A DNA stretch of 56,701 bases from Gammaproteobacteria bacterium (lineage in GTDB: Bacteria; Pseudomonadota; Gammaproteobacteria; Magnimaribacterales; D2472). The position numbers and the translations under genes were made by a program. Positions within the stretch are counted from its first letter, which is position 1. Each line of letters opens with the position of its first letter. This document shows, one piece after another, positions 41,088-49,505 of this stretch. The notes beneath the pieces are model-generated. The model did not search any database. It saw only the letters and a list, made by a program, of their open reading frames with translations, and had not been told where the DNA came from. The stretch spans positions 76,026 through 132,726 of the forward strand of contig NZFS01000011.1 of NCBI GenBank assembly GCA_002690725.1, given 5' to 3'.

Positions 41088-41813
41088 ATGCCAGATTCAA
41101 AAGAAGACAGTTCTCCAAAGTTAATTAAGGAGTTCGGATCGCATCATCCAATCAATCAGATGAAAGATTCTATTATGAATCTCTTGTTATCTTTTGGTTT
41201 TGAAATAATTGATGGTCCTGAAATTGAAACTGAAGAATTTAATTTCGATATGTTAAATATAAAAAAGTCTCATCCAGCTCGCCAAATGCATGACACATTT
41301 TATGTCGACAATAAATCTAGTGTTTTAAGAACACACACTTCTCCTGTTCAAATAAGAGGAATGTTAGAAAAAGATCCTCCATTTGCTTTTATTTCTGGTG
41401 GTAAAGTTTACAGAAAAGATGATGATGCAACTCATCTTCCAATGTTTCATCAAATCGAAGGTATTTATGTAGATAAGGGCGTTAATTTTGCAAATTTAAA
41501 AGATTTAATATATAAAATAATCCAATCCTTATTTGGAAAAGAAATCAGATTAAGATTTAGACCATCTTACTTCCCATTCACAGAACCATCTGCAGAAGTA
41601 GATATATTATCTGATGAAGAGAAATGGCTTGAAATTTTAGGATGTGGAGTCGTAAATCCAATTGTGTTGGAGAACTGCAATATTGATTCAAATAAATACT
41701 CAGGGTTTGCCTTTGGTTTGGGAATTGAACGGATAGCAATGATAAAGTTTGGAGTAAATGATATCAGAGATTTTTATAAATCTAATTTGGACTTCCTTAA
41801 ACAATTTAAATGA
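41088..41813 (+). CDS. pheS: Phenylalanyl-tRNA synthetase alpha subunit, lacking the N-terminal coiled coil
   Basis: Catalytic class II core: HHPINQM, FEIIDGPEIE, NFDMLNI..HPARQMHDTFYV, LRTHTSPVQIRGM (motif 2), FRPSYFPFTEPSAEVDI, and FGLGIERIAMIKFGVNDIR (motif 3). At 241 residues it is about 85-100 shorter than the usual alpha subunit: it begins where the catalytic domain begins, and the N-terminal coiled coil that contacts tRNA is absent. rplT ends only ten bases upstream, so no hidden N-terminus exists. It overlaps pheT by four bases. See pheT for a matching domain loss. Confidence 0.93.
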   Translation: MPDSKEDSSPKLIKEFGSHHPINQMKDSIMNLLLSFGFEIIDGPEIETEEFNFDMLNIKKSHPARQMHDTFYVDNKSSVLRTHTSPVQIRGMLEKDPPFAFISGGKVYRKDDDATHLPMFHQIEGIYVDKGVNFANLKDLIYKIIQSLFGKEIRLRFRPSYFPFTEPSAEVDILSDEEKWLEILGCGVVNPIVLENCNIDSNKYSGFAFGLGIERIAMIKFGVNDIRDFYKSNLDFLKQFK

Positions 41814-43714
41814 AAATACCTTATAAACATTTTGTTAAACATATTGATTCAAAACCCAGTATTGAGGAATTATCAGATAAACTTTTTCAACTAGGTCATG
41901 AGCATGAAATATTTGATGAAATCTTTGATATGGAACTTACACCAAATAGAGGTGATTGCCTTTCACTTAATGGGTTACTTAGAGATTTAGGACTCTTTTA
42001 TAGTATTTCGATCGAAAAAGATATTTATATAAAAGATATAAAACCTTTTAAATTTGAATTTATAAATGATGCGAGTCACTTATGTAAGAATATTTCTTTT
42101 TTAAAGTTAGATATTGATCAAGTCCCAAAAAATTATAATAAATTTTTAGAGAATTACTTTACAGATTTAAATGTTAAAAAGATTAATTTTTTTACTGATA
42201 TATCAAACTATATTTCATATGAAACTGGGCAACCAACTCATTGCTATGATTCATTGATGATCGATGACTACATTAGATTGGGTTATCAAAAAGATCGTTG
42301 TGAATTTGAAACTCTAACAAATAAAAAGATATACATAGATAGCGGTGATTTAGTTTTTTTTGACAAAGATAATAAAATTATTAATTTAGCTGGAGTTATG
42401 GGCGGTAAAGATACAGCATGTAAAGTGGATACTAAATCTGTACTGATTGAATGCGCACATTTTAATTCAGAAGCAATTATTGGAAGATCGTTAAAATATG
42501 ATATTAATTCAGATGCCGCCCATAAGTTTGAAAGAGAAACTGATGCATATAGTCATGATTTTGTTTTAAGAAGATTCATAAAAATCGTTGAAAATCACTC
42601 AAATATCAAAAATATTGAGTTATTTAATGGAAATAATGAGGAAAGGAAAGAGAAAATTATTCCTTTTGATTTTTCAAAGATAAATAATATTTTGGGCATT
42701 GATATTACTGAGAATGAATGCTCAAAATATCTACAAAAACTAAATTTTTTAATAGATAAAAATACTATTAAAATTCCCTCATATAGAAATGATGTTAATA
42801 ATATCAATGATATTGCTGAAGAAATTGCAAGAGCAATTGGTTACGACAATATAAAAAAACAAAAAATTAATATATCTGTAAAAAATAATTTCAATCAAAC
42901 TTTTATAGAACATAAAATAAAAAAATTATTAACTGGAGAGGGTTTTTTTGAAGTAATAAATAATCCTTTTGTGAGTGACGGCACTGAAGAATCAGTAGTA
43001 GTTGATAATCCTCTTGATTCAAATAAGAAGTATGTCAGAACTAATTTAAAAAATTCCTTGATAGAAAATCTTTTATACAATGAAAGAAGACAAAAAGACT
43101 CTATAAAGTTGTTTGAAATAGCAGATTTATATACTAATAAAACCAGAATTGGTAAAAGAGTGATTGGGATAATTGCTAGCGGCAGAATTGATAAAAATTA
43201 TTTAAATTTCTCTAAAAAAATTGATATTAATTATTTAGAAAGTATTTTGCATAAAATCAGTTATGAAAATTTAGAATTAGAAGAAATATCAAGACAGTCG
43301 CTTGATTCCAAATTAAAAAATAAAATTGTTTATTGCGAGTTAGAAATTAAATCATCTATTAAATTCGAATTCTCATATGAAAATTTTAATATAAAACATC
43401 TTAGCGAAAAAAAATATACTCCAATATCTGAATTTCCTAGTTCAAATAGAGACCTTTCATTCTCTATAAAAGATTTTTCAAAATGTAAAATACTTGAAGA
43501 GTTTATTCTTAATTTTGAAAATGCTTTGTTAAAAGAAGTATTTGTTTTTGATTATTTTAAAAATGAAAAGATGAATGAAATTAAAATTGGATTTAGATTT
43601 ATTTTTCAATCAAAAGATTCCACTGTAACCGATAATGAAGTTGATACAATTATTGATGAAATTATATCTGGTGCCCTGAAGTATGATTCAGTAAGTGTTC
43701 CTGGTTTGGTCTAA
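41810..43714 (+). CDS. pheT: Phenylalanyl-tRNA synthetase beta subunit, lacking the EMAP/OB (B2) domain
   Basis: 634 residues against about 795 in E. coli. The opening (residues 1-38) is B1; the sequence then passes directly into MELTPNRGDCLSLNGLLRDLG (about residue 41), which normally follows the roughly 110-residue OB-fold tRNA-binding domain. That domain is missing. B3/B4 (GQPTHCYDS, AGVMGGKDTAC), B5 (SYRNDVNNINDIAEEIARAIGYDNI), the catalytic-like B6/B7 part (DNPLDSNKKYVRTNL) and the C-terminal anticodon-binding FDX-ACB domain (EFPSSNRDLSF) remain. With the shortened PheS this is a reduced heterotetrameric enzyme. Confidence 0.93.
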   Translation: MKIPYKHFVKHIDSKPSIEELSDKLFQLGHEHEIFDEIFDMELTPNRGDCLSLNGLLRDLGLFYSISIEKDIYIKDIKPFKFEFINDASHLCKNISFLKLDIDQVPKNYNKFLENYFTDLNVKKINFFTDISNYISYETGQPTHCYDSLMIDDYIRLGYQKDRCEFETLTNKKIYIDSGDLVFFDKDNKIINLAGVMGGKDTACKVDTKSVLIECAHFNSEAIIGRSLKYDINSDAAHKFERETDAYSHDFVLRRFIKIVENHSNIKNIELFNGNNEERKEKIIPFDFSKINNILGIDITENECSKYLQKLNFLIDKNTIKIPSYRNDVNNINDIAEEIARAIGYDNIKKQKINISVKNNFNQTFIEHKIKKLLTGEGFFEVINNPFVSDGTEESVVVDNPLDSNKKYVRTNLKNSLIENLLYNERRQKDSIKLFEIADLYTNKTRIGKRVIGIIASGRIDKNYLNFSKKIDINYLESILHKISYENLELEEISRQSLDSKLKNKIVYCELEIKSSIKFEFSYENFNIKHLSEKKYTPISEFPSSNRDLSFSIKDFSKCKILEEFILNFENALLKEVFVFDYFKNEKMNEIKIGFRFIFQSKDSTVTDNEVDTIIDEIISGALKYDSVSVPGLV

Positions 43715-43786: not shown

Positions 43787-45607
43787 ATGAAAAATTTATT
43801 ATTGTCTATTTTATTAATCTCAGTTTTTTTCCTTAATGCTCAGCAGTTTGATGAGTCATTTTTAGATAGCTTACCAGACGATATTAGAGAAGATCTTGTC
43901 AATAGATCTGAAGAAAACACTAAAGCACTGGATGAAAATTATAGGCCTTCACAATATTCAAGCAAATTACAGCAGTTTGAAGAGTTAATTGATCTGAAAT
44001 CTCGAATTGAGCAGGATTTAAGAGAATTAGAAAAGAGGTTACAAAGTGATGATAAGCTTGAAATTAATACAGAATTAAAACTTTTTGGTTTAGATTTTTT
44101 TAACACATTCCAAACTTCGTTTATGCCAATTAATGAACCTAATCCTGATTCATCATACACGTTAGGCGTTGGTGATGTTCTAAGTATTCAATTGGTTGGT
44201 CAAAAAGACATCATTGAGGATTTTTTAATAAATGGTGATGGCTCAATTAATTTTCCAGACATTGGTGAAATAGTACTAATTGGTTTATCTCTTGATGAAG
44301 CATCAAAACTAATAAAGTCTAGGGTGAACTCTTCATTTATTGGAATAGAAGCATTCATTAGCATGTCAAAGTTAAGAGATGTCAACGTATTAATTACTGG
44401 TGACGCTCAGAACCCAGGTATTTACACATTATCTGGTAATTCAAATATCTTACAAGCAATAAATATTGCTGGTGGAATTAGTGAGTATGGGACATTCAGA
44501 GAAATTAACTTAGTTAGAGATAATAAAATTATTGAAGTTTTAGATGTTTATGAACTTTTAATAAATGGGAATTTTAATCTTAAAGAACGATTAAGGTCAG
44601 GTGATGTAATATTTATAAATCCCAGAAAAAGTGTTGTATCCATAGATGGAGCAGTTAAAAGACCTGCAAAATATGAGCTTCTTGATGAACAAAATCTTGG
44701 AGACGTTATTAATTACGCAAATGGATTTAAACAAACTGCAGATATTCAAAATATATATCTTGAAAGAATTTTGGATGGCACTCTTAAATCAATACCCATT
44801 ACAAACAGTATTCAGTTTGATTCAATAAAGTCAGTTGATGGAGATATGATTTATATAAGAGAATATCCATACAGAAAAGCAACTATTTCAGGTGCTGTAT
44901 TAAAGCCTGGTACTTACACGATGGCTGCTGGTGAAACATTAGACGATTTAATAATTAAGGCCGGTGGTTTTACAGAAAATGCTTATCCTTTTGGAGCTAT
45001 TTTTGAAAATAGAGATGCTAAATTGATAAATGAAGCTGCACAAAGCTTATTATATCAAGAGTTTTTGGATAATATTATTGCACTAAGTCAACAAAATATT
45101 AGCGGAAATTTTGACTTAACTCCTATAGTTGGCCTGACAAAAGAGATTAATGATTTAGAACCAAATGGAAGAATAGTTGTTGATATGGAAAATGAAGCCG
45201 CGAGAGAAACTCTCGGTATTCAAGAGGGTGATAATTTAAAAGTTCCTGAGAAAACAAACAATGTGTATGTCTACGGAGAAGTTTCATCTGAAGGTTCTGT
45301 CATGTATGAAGAAAATAAAAGTGTTGATTTTTTTATAGATAAATCAGGCGGTTATAAAAAATATGCAGATAATGAATCAATTTATATATTACATCCAAAT
45401 GGAGAAACACAAAGATACTCAAAGAAAAGAAATATATTTGAAAATCAACCTAAGTCAGGTATCACGATATATCCAGGATCGGTGATATTTGTTCCAAGAG
45501 AAATAGATAATTCATCCTCAAGAACATTAGCCGCCCAAGCATATGTAACCATACTTGGTAATTTAGGCCTCGCATTGGCATCATTGAACTCCATAAGCAG
45601 TGATTGA
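43787..45607 (+). CDS. Wza-like polysaccharide export outer-membrane protein with four SLBB repeats
   Basis: 606 residues with an N-terminal signal peptide (LLLSILLISVFFLNAQ) without a lipobox cysteine. A charged, probably helical stretch (about 55-95) precedes the poly-export domain (YTLGVGDVLSIQLVG, from about 124, GDGSINFPDIGEI). Four SLBB domains follow: ITGDAQNPGIYTL, IDGAVKRPAKYEL, ISGAVLKPGTYTM and VYGEVSSEGSVMY. It forms the outer-membrane exit for capsule or exopolysaccharide. Unlike E. coli Wza it is not a lipoprotein and has extra SLBB units, as in longer family members. It is followed 12 bases later by the YjbH-like gene. Confidence 0.88.
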   Translation: MKNLLLSILLISVFFLNAQQFDESFLDSLPDDIREDLVNRSEENTKALDENYRPSQYSSKLQQFEELIDLKSRIEQDLRELEKRLQSDDKLEINTELKLFGLDFFNTFQTSFMPINEPNPDSSYTLGVGDVLSIQLVGQKDIIEDFLINGDGSINFPDIGEIVLIGLSLDEASKLIKSRVNSSFIGIEAFISMSKLRDVNVLITGDAQNPGIYTLSGNSNILQAINIAGGISEYGTFREINLVRDNKIIEVLDVYELLINGNFNLKERLRSGDVIFINPRKSVVSIDGAVKRPAKYELLDEQNLGDVINYANGFKQTADIQNIYLERILDGTLKSIPITNSIQFDSIKSVDGDMIYIREYPYRKATISGAVLKPGTYTMAAGETLDDLIIKAGGFTENAYPFGAIFENRDAKLINEAAQSLLYQEFLDNIIALSQQNISGNFDLTPIVGLTKEINDLEPNGRIVVDMENEAARETLGIQEGDNLKVPEKTNNVYVYGEVSSEGSVMYEENKSVDFFIDKSGGYKKYADNESIYILHPNGETQRYSKKRNIFENQPKSGITIYPGSVIFVPREIDNSSSRTLAAQAYVTILGNLGLALASLNSISSD

Positions 45608-45619
45608 TTTCGATCAACA

Positions 45620-47593
45620 ATGTTACTAAAAAAAAAAGAAGCAGGTAACAAAAAATTTTTTTTTGTTTTAATTTTCCTCACCTTTTTATCATCTGCAGAT
45701 AGTTTCGATAATAACCTTTATAACAATCATGGAATTGTAGGCTTAATAAATATTCCAACTGCAAGATCTTACGATGAAGGAGTACATGGAGTTACTATAT
45801 ATGATAGTGATATAGATCAAAAAATTACTTTAACATCAAATCCATATGATTGGTTAGAAGCTTCCTTCTTTTATGTAAATATTCCGAGTATTGAACTTTG
45901 TAGGGCTTACTTTGATGTCAGAACATACTGTCAGGGTTTTAAAGATAAAGGATTCAATCTTAAGTTAAGAATAAAGCAGGAAGGTATTTTTCCTGCAATC
46001 GCTATAGGTTTTATGGATTTTGCAGGGACTGGAAAATATTCCTCCGAATATATAGTTTCAAGCTATGGTGTGGGCAAACTAGATATGCATTTCGGAATGG
46101 GTTGGGGAGCCTTAGGTGGTTCATCTGAGAAAATAAAAAATCCATTTGGCTACATAAGTGATAGTTTTTATTCAAGAGGAGGTTATGCAAGCCTTGGAGG
46201 ACAATTAAATTTCTCTAATTTTTTCTCTGGTCAAGAAGCAGCACCTTTTTACGGAATATCATATAGTTTCAATAAAAATGTGCTTTTTCAAATTGAAAAA
46301 GATACTATTTTAGTTGATGGTGGATCTCTTCCATATCCTGATAGAGAAAGTGACTATACCATTGGCCTTAATTACTTAATTAATGATAATTTTTCTCTTG
46401 GATTTTCATATGAAAAGGGGGGATACTCGTCATTAAAATTTCTATATAAAAATAATCCAAAAAGATCATTTAAGAAATATGAATATCAACAAGCAGATAC
46501 ATCTATAAATGATGACAAATACACAAAATTAATAAAAAATCTTGAGGAAAACGGCATTGGTGTAAATAAAATATCGGAAACTTCAAGATTCTTAGGCCTT
46601 GAATTAACACAATTTATACATCCTGATTTAAATCTAGTTGAGGAGATAATATCACAAGCATCAAGGGATGCTGGAATCAAAAAAGATATAAAAAAAGATT
46701 TAAAAATAACAGATTTAAAAGCTGTATCTGAAATTGATGAGGCTTTTGAAAGAAGTGCTAGAACAATTTATGAAAGACAGCAGTACAGGGGAGTAAATAC
46801 ATCATCAAATATTCGATTTAGGCCTTTTGTAGCATCAAGAGAAGAGTTTTTTAAAGGTGCAGTATTAGCGGAAAATGATACAGAGTTTGTAATAAGAGAA
46901 AATTTATTCTTCAATACAAATTTAAAATATTCTTTAGCTGATAACTTTGATGATCTAATCTTCCCACCTGTTGACACTTTCCCAGCACAAGTAAGGTCAG
47001 ACGTTAAGCAGTATCTAAAAAACATGGATCAAGGAATTCTTGTAGGAAGAGCTCAGATCGACTATCACCTTACTCCAAAAACAAATCACCATTTAATGTT
47101 TACAGGTGGCATCCTTGAAGACATGTTTTCAGGTTATGGAGCAGAATATTTATATTTTAAGCCTAATTCAAATTACTCATATGGTATTGAAGCATTTAAA
47201 GTAAAAAAAAGAGATTACAATTGGGGTTTTGGACATTTAGATTATGAAAATATTACGATGACTGCAAATCTTTACTATAGAAATTATGGGTTAATTCCAT
47301 TTGATATGAAGATTAGTGCTGGTGAATATCTCGCCGGTGATATTGGCTCCACTATTGAATTTTCAAGAACTTTTCAAAGTGGAGTAAGATTCGGAGCATT
47401 TGCAACTTTTACAGATGTATCTTCTGAAGACTTTGGAGAAGGATCTTTTGATAAAGGGATTTTTTTTAATATCCCTATATATGGGAATTTAATAAATTAT
47501 ACTTGGAGGCCTCTTACTAAAGATCCTGGTGCAAAATTAATAAGGCACCATAATTTAAATGATTTATTAGTGAAATTTAGACCATTAGATTAG
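45620..47593 (+). CDS. YjbH/GfcD-like outer-membrane exopolysaccharide protein
   Basis: 657 residues: a basic N-terminus with signal peptide (KKFFFVLIFLTFLSSADS), then the YjbH-family opening GIVGLINIPTARSYDEGVHGVTI, alternating strands rich in aromatic residues (WLEASFFYVNIPSIE, GFMDFAGTGKYSSEYIVSSY), and a C-terminal barrel-like half (SYGIEAFKVKKRDYNWGFG). The family is predicted to be beta-barrel in the outer membrane and works with Wza/GfcE-type exporters. No lipobox Cys is seen. The adjacent Wza-like gene fits a two-part export outlet. Confidence 0.85.
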   Translation: MLLKKKEAGNKKFFFVLIFLTFLSSADSFDNNLYNNHGIVGLINIPTARSYDEGVHGVTIYDSDIDQKITLTSNPYDWLEASFFYVNIPSIELCRAYFDVRTYCQGFKDKGFNLKLRIKQEGIFPAIAIGFMDFAGTGKYSSEYIVSSYGVGKLDMHFGMGWGALGGSSEKIKNPFGYISDSFYSRGGYASLGGQLNFSNFFSGQEAAPFYGISYSFNKNVLFQIEKDTILVDGGSLPYPDRESDYTIGLNYLINDNFSLGFSYEKGGYSSLKFLYKNNPKRSFKKYEYQQADTSINDDKYTKLIKNLEENGIGVNKISETSRFLGLELTQFIHPDLNLVEEIISQASRDAGIKKDIKKDLKITDLKAVSEIDEAFERSARTIYERQQYRGVNTSSNIRFRPFVASREEFFKGAVLAENDTEFVIRENLFFNTNLKYSLADNFDDLIFPPVDTFPAQVRSDVKQYLKNMDQGILVGRAQIDYHLTPKTNHHLMFTGGILEDMFSGYGAEYLYFKPNSNYSYGIEAFKVKKRDYNWGFGHLDYENITMTANLYYRNYGLIPFDMKISAGEYLAGDIGSTIEFSRTFQSGVRFGAFATFTDVSSEDFGEGSFDKGIFFNIPIYGNLINYTWRPLTKDPGAKLIRHHNLNDLLVKFRPLD

Positions 47594-47727: not shown

Positions 47728-49140
<1,413 letters not shown>

Positions 49141-49154
49141 AATATAGATAACAA

Positions 49155-49427
49155 TTGAGTCTCGGAAAAAAAGATATTATAAATAATATCTCTTCCGAGA
49201 CTTTTTTAAATAAATCTACAAGCAGAAGTTTCCTTGAGTCGTTCATAAGAATTATAAAAAAAAATAAGTCCAATATAGTTAAGATTTCAAAATTTGGTAC
49301 ATTCTATATTCATAAATCTCCTCAAAGAATTGGACGAAACCCAAAGACTAAACAAGAATTTATAATTCCTGAAAGAAAAAAGTTAGTTTTTAAACCATCT
49401 ACATTTATAAAAAATAAAATAAATTAA
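49155..49427 (+). CDS. ihfA: Integration host factor subunit alpha
   Basis: 90-residue HU/IHF protein: LGKKDIINNIS at the N-terminus aligns with the LTKADMAE region of IhfA, then VKISKFGTFYIHKSPQRIGRNPKTKQEFIIPERKKLVFKPS. The arm QRxGRNPKT and the IxxRxxxxFKP ending are alpha-type, partner of ihfB at 3986. The start is TTG at 49155, without a visible Shine-Dalgarno and 14 bases after the previous stop. Normally ihfA follows pheT directly; here 5.4 kb of export and surface genes intervene. Its first 18 codons form a strong terminator-like hairpin. Confidence 0.9.
   Translation: MSLGKKDIINNISSETFLNKSTSRSFLESFIRIIKKNKSNIVKISKFGTFYIHKSPQRIGRNPKTKQEFIIPERKKLVFKPSTFIKNKIN
49158..49207 (+). terminator. 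Intrinsic-terminator hairpin inside the ihfA 5' coding end
   Basis: AGTCTCGGAA (49158-49167) pairs perfectly with TTCCGAGACT (49193-49202). Inside, GATATTAT (49173-49180) pairs with ATAATATC (49183-49190). A run of T follows to 49207. The GC-containing outer stem plus U-tract has the form of a Rho-independent terminator for the surface-protein gene, which ends 17 bases upstream, yet it lies within the ihfA reading frame. Confidence 0.8.
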
Positions 49428-49428
49428 T

Positions 49429-49505
49429 TGGTCGGGATGGCCGGATTTGAACCGACGACCACTACACCCCCAGTGTAGTGCGCTACCAGACTGCGCTACA
49501 TCCCG
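49429..49505 (-). tRNA. tRNA-Pro(GGG)
   Basis: On the minus strand: acceptor CGGGATG pairs with CATCCCG, anticodon stem CTACA/TGTAG encloses loop CTGGGGG with anticodon GGG (complement of 49469-49471), T-loop GTTCAAATC, discriminator A and encoded CCA (complement of 49429-49431). It begins one base after the ihfA stop, in the opposite direction, so the two transcripts converge. Confidence 0.96.

Follow-up and report, generated by a model that had tools for sequence, protein, structure and literature searches.

In the SAR86 genome studied here, a divergent ihfA gene carries a stable hairpin and, after it, a run of T within its first 18 codons. We interpret this element as an intrinsic terminator that probably belongs to the preceding surface-protein gene (positions 47773-49140, the proposed owner) and is dual-coded in the beginning of ihfA, with ihfA itself expressed by read-through. 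From the sequence comparisons given below, we assign this reading a probability of roughly 0.7. A preliminary description of this DNA had put forward that the same stretch is terminator and code at once. This idea is well supported: the hairpin is conserved, its stem shows compensatory changes, its presence depends on which gene lies upstream, and it ranks high in a genome-wide comparison.

A hairpin within the first codons of ihfA

The window, i.e., the whole stretch of DNA that was analysed (56,701 nt), comes from a SAR86 genome of 0.92 Mb in 16 contigs that is 79% complete; the assignment to SAR86 is based on the nearest named relative, a SAR86 single-cell genome with an IhfA identity of 94%. 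The features of interest, in window positions, are:

41810-43714, + strand: pheT, next to ihfA in the ancestral order but here parted from it by a module (ORF; B5 domain at G000:C12:118684-118869)
43787-45607, + strand: SLBB / Poly_export protein, first module gene between pheT and ihfA (Pfam)
45620-47593, + strand: YjbH-family exopolysaccharide protein, second module gene (Pfam)
47773-49140, + strand: gene for a secreted protein that has Ig-like/HYR repeats and ends in a (TG)n tail; last in the polysaccharide-export module (ORF; Pfam PF16403, PF02494)
49155-49427, + strand: divergent ihfA with a TTG start, hairpin and T-run in codons 1-18 (ORF, NCBIfam, Pfam)
49157-49167, + strand: outer stem, 5' arm, with G49157 in a G·U pair (direct reading, fold, covariation analysis)
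49172-49191, + strand: inner stem-loop, 8 bp, loop TAAA (direct reading, fold)
49193-49203, + strand: 3' arm of the outer stem (direct reading, fold, covariation analysis)
49202-49207, + strand: T6 run, the proposed U-tract, overlapping the final stem bases (direct reading, U-tract comparison)
49429-49505, - strand: tRNA-Pro(GGG), convergent with ihfA and 1 nt past its stop (same neighbour in relatives)

The ORF at 49155-49427 matched Pfam Bac_DNA_binding with 74 bits, over the cut-off, and its top NCBIfam match was IhfA (E 4e-19), under the equivalog cut-off; we therefore call its product a divergent IhfA. The hairpin lies in codons of a protein of the IHF/HU fold that is nearest to IhfA. The TTG at 49155 is the sole ATG, GTG or TTG start in frame ahead of the conserved part. 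The gene upstream encodes a secreted-type protein with a long Thr-Gly tail; in this protein and in repeat-tailed proteins of other genomes (L159-L166) the C-termini are long runs of Thr-Gly or Ser-Thr that differ widely in length and sequence from one genome to the next.

Direct reading of the sequence confirmed to the base the outer 10-bp stem, the inner stem and the T-run of the preliminary description, and ORF reading confirmed the upstream stop at 49140. The outer stem, which begins 17 nt downstream of this stop, consists of 10 Watson-Crick pairs (A49158-A49167 with T49193-T49202) and is extended to 11 bp by G49157·U49203; the inner stem pairs 49172-49179 with 49184-49191, and the T6 run shares the last stem bases. 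The RNA fold of 49120-49240 had an energy of -28.1 kcal/mol (z -4.36; none of 200 shuffles was equally stable), and the 10-11 bp outer stem with its G-C pairs had values of -17.6 to -19.3 kcal/mol. No Rfam covariance model matched at 49157-49207, and a terminator scan limited to loops of 3-8 nt missed the hairpin because of this limit.

Gene order in relatives and occurrence of the hairpin

In most SAR86 genomes ihfA directly follows pheT, usually overlapping the pheT stop or lying a few nt away, and in enterobacteria ihfA likewise stands directly after pheT (PMC8942017). Part of the family has the order pheT - ihfA - SLBB - YjbH, followed by a repeat-tailed gene that runs the other way and by tRNA-Pro. 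The order in the window is pheT - SLBB - YjbH - repeat-tailed gene - ihfA - tRNA-Pro; 35 other loci with a usable frame share this layout, although the genes ahead of the repeat-tailed one were read in the window only. Genera g1 and g5 each contain both layouts, and a tree of IhfA, built on few columns and with many open forks, clusters mainly by layout. This combination suggests that a cassette including ihfA was exchanged or rearranged as a unit.

A hairpin was found in 32 of the 36 loci with a repeat-tailed surface-protein gene directly upstream of ihfA, and a comparable one in none of the 43 loci without this gene ahead of ihfA. The same hairpin as in the window (type A) was present at 22 of the 36 loci, in genera g1 and g5. 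At the three g8 loci the register of the outer stem is slightly shifted (ATGTCTTT/AAAGACAT) and the stem is imperfect in L049. In the seven g6 loci the terminator is another one, located at about codons 17-25 (GGGCTATC/GATAGCC followed by T8), and the remaining four (L024, L026, L028, L059) have no such hairpin. The g8 loci (L032, L049, L058) also carry a second stable hairpin at about ihfA codons 25-35 (CAGCTACTTGA/TCAAGTAGTTG) with a short T-run.

The first 34 codons were compared with synonymous recodings drawn from genome codon usage. The mean z was -3.8 for the 36 loci behind a repeat-tailed gene, 28 of which were below -2.7, while elsewhere it was 0.07 (28 pheT loci) and -0.6 (12 loci of a second pheT-first layout); the Mann-Whitney p of 5e-12 is optimistic, since the loci are related. 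The strongest exception outside the layout was the sister pair L030 (z -2.6) and L031 (z -1.3), whose hairpin and T-run are weaker; L081 reached a stem-plus-tail score of 30 but showed no synonymous excess (z -0.6). Across 107 genomes of the family, a covariance model of the hairpin (R1) gave strong matches only at ihfA starts and at their own antisense images, and its three non-ihfA matches had E values of merely 0.005-0.009. As one half of what would refute it, the preliminary description had named a stem that is not conserved in relatives while the protein is; within this gene layout the outcome on this half favoured its idea.

Compensatory changes and their consequences for IhfA

Covariation was assessed on 21 distinct type-A sequences. 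In these, 95.8% of cells were paired and 27 cells were two-sided; none of 500 shuffles reached as high a covariation score, and sliding the partner by 1-3 columns lowered pairing to 31-50%. With an IhfA tree that starts at residue 17 and leaves out the hairpin codons, about 12 independent two-sided changes were counted, distributed over pairs 4/48 (about three), 6/46 (about four), 7/45 (about one), 9/43 (about three) and 24/31 (about one). The g6 terminator showed 98.4% pairing and, at one pair, a two-sided change from G-C to A-U in two loci, in a set of seven sequences only.

On one side of the stem the two-sided changes alter the protein (Ser/Gly2, Leu/Phe3, Lys/Glu15, Ala/Thr16); their partners on the opposite side are mostly silent. 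Gly4 is found in all 22 type-A loci and in none of 56 others, position 4 being Thr in 28 of 28 pheT loci; the GGN codon of Gly4 pairs with the NCC of codon 14, forming GG/CC pairs. These patterns indicate that the RNA constraint has steered amino acids of IhfA.

Terminator-like properties in a sister genome

A total of 828 gene ends were scored in G030, a sister genome covered over 800 kb with 830 ORFs. The ihfA hairpin obtained the top terminator score of all of them, 33.8, and no ORF had a more stable terminator-like structure in its first 60 nt. This genome has few good intrinsic terminators: about ten gene ends scored at least 28, a value reached by none of 613 internal controls. The other clear terminators start about 18-22 nt past the stop and follow genes for TonB receptors, H+-pyrophosphatase and recA, as named from their protein sequences; such genes are typically highly expressed. 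The T7 run of the terminator-like hairpin after recA (G030:C1:759554-759612) reaches right up to the ATG of the following gene, so that here too a terminator would be pressed against a start codon. A second candidate for a dual-coded terminator, a hairpin with T8 inside the first rlmN codons at ndk-rlmN (G030:C1:785521-785600; relatives L167-L190), was rejected: it looked good in two close genomes, but the stem of the relatives is weak and largely dictated by the protein.

In the alternative layout, the putative counterpart of the repeat-tailed gene, which has a different N-terminus, is followed by an ordinary terminator 17-21 nt past its stop in six of six genomes. The gap between the upstream stop and the ihfA start is 9-25 nt in type A, and given the footprint of a ribosome this would leave the stem clear of a ribosome standing on the stop codon. 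The U-tract after the stem is T6 in the window and T8 in g6; it is poor in about one-third of the type-A relatives (e.g., L009, L016, L017, L019-L022), though the stem is retained. Such loci may terminate only weakly, or their stem may instead influence translation or the stability of the mRNA.

Proposed mechanism and alternative readings

If the hairpin terminates transcription, most RNA polymerase leaving the surface-protein gene would stop at about 49202-49207 and ihfA would be made from the fraction that reads through; alternatively, ihfA might be expressed if a ribosome that starts translation covers the 5' arm soon enough. Ribosomes perhaps re-initiate at ihfA after the nearby upstream stop. 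The terminator would thereby keep ihfA at a low level, as a side product of a strong transcription unit. A promoter search between the module and the gene revealed no convincing ihfA promoter, which agrees with read-through but proves nothing. It also counts against termination, as a gene with no evident promoter of its own would receive too little transcription behind a terminator of very high efficiency. The poor U-tracts and the four loci that lack a hairpin behind the repeat-tailed gene speak against termination as well.

Since the stem is kept with a poor U-tract in several relatives, roles at the start codon or in stabilising a 3' end retain some probability. According to the first, the stem would fold up the start and the first codons and mainly lower or regulate initiation of ihfA translation, with termination secondary or absent. 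In all 22 type-A loci the stem indeed opens with the G of the start codon, and the starts are often TTG or GTG without an SD motif. SD motifs, however, are uncommon across the whole genome (27% versus 17% at random positions), the g6 hairpin lies clear of the start codon and carries T8, and hairpins occur only behind a repeat-tailed gene. We therefore regard this explanation as unlikely.

Translation could also matter in another way. It had been suggested that translation from the weak TTG melts the stem, and translation-dependent attenuation or antitermination at the ihfA hairpin is possible. No SD motif for ihfA was seen, and neither a leader peptide nor an alternative antiterminator fold appeared in the folds made; ihfA itself would have to serve as the leader. 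In the most elaborate version, what the ribosome does where the surface-protein gene ends would decide whether polymerase enters ihfA, tying the level of a global DNA-bending protein to the surface-polysaccharide module, and the cassette with its terminator-coding ihfA would have been exchanged between SAR86 lineages. We consider this combination rather improbable.

The hairpin could instead protect a 3' end: the mRNA of the surface protein would end further downstream, by Rho or processing, and be trimmed back to the hairpin, so that no U-tract is needed. Rho is encoded in the genome, intrinsic terminators are rare in it, and stems with poor U-tracts would be accounted for; on the other hand, the T6-T8 runs in the window and g6 and the U-tract terminators of the counterpart gene fit direct termination better, leaving this explanation a low probability.

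The preliminary description had further speculated on self-control by IHF, in which IHF would bind the ihfA RNA or the DNA beneath it and set its own synthesis. While ihfA is autoregulated by IHF in enterobacteria, with the promoter inside pheT (PMC8942017), the pheT-linked ihfA genes analysed here lack the hairpin, and the hairpin tracks the upstream gene and not ihfA. By consensus matching only, no match to the IHF consensus WATCAANNNNTTR lies near the hairpin, the nearest being at 42893 inside pheT; the speculation is thus unsupported, and we hold it to be very improbable. In the window as a whole the consensus occurs three times, the match at 42893 included, against a mean of 13.8 in dinucleotide shuffles.

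Finally, the notion that the inverted repeat merely mirrors protein sequence and codon usage has virtually no standing, although part of the inner stem lies in codons for conserved-type residues (Asp7-Ile8 and Asn11-Ile12), as synonymous recoding fails to reproduce the hairpin and two-sided changes preserve pairing while changing amino acids, which rules out chance or a codon artefact.

Relation to known systems and significance

With known intrinsic terminators the ihfA hairpin shares a stable stem, a U-tract and a position about 17 nt past the upstream stop; it differs in its long A/U-rich inner stem-loop and in sitting within the codons of the next gene, under protein and RNA constraint. 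In Escherichia coli the frd terminator, which is also the ampC attenuator, limits transcription into the next gene. There too an upstream terminator restricts the next gene, but it stands ahead of the ampC start codon, whereas the SAR86 hairpin lies within the ihfA coding sequence.

The enterobacterial ihfA gene, of the same family, is co-transcribed with pheST and also transcribed from an IHF-autoregulated promoter in pheT (PMC8942017). The order pheT-ihfA is ancestral in SAR86 as well, but in the window the polysaccharide module parts the two genes. Mapped RNA 3' ends within coding sequences are common in E. coli (PMC7815308), where the stress is on premature ends of a gene's own mRNA; the end proposed here is that of the preceding gene and is kept by compensatory changes. 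A literature search that covered few subscription journals gave no precedent, either for terminators overlapping a downstream start codon or for SAR86 with IHF or terminators.

The ihfA hairpin would be a clear natural case of one DNA stretch under two conserved constraints, those of an RNA terminator and of the next gene's protein code, with the RNA visibly steering a nucleoid protein (Gly4 where others mostly have Thr, and the Lys/Glu switch at position 15). Terminator annotation restricted to intergenic DNA would overlook such elements. For SAR86, the hairpin would illustrate one way to end transcripts in a streamlined genome from which spacers are nearly absent. It would also show how a surface-polysaccharide module took over ihfA, a gene that is normally linked to pheST.
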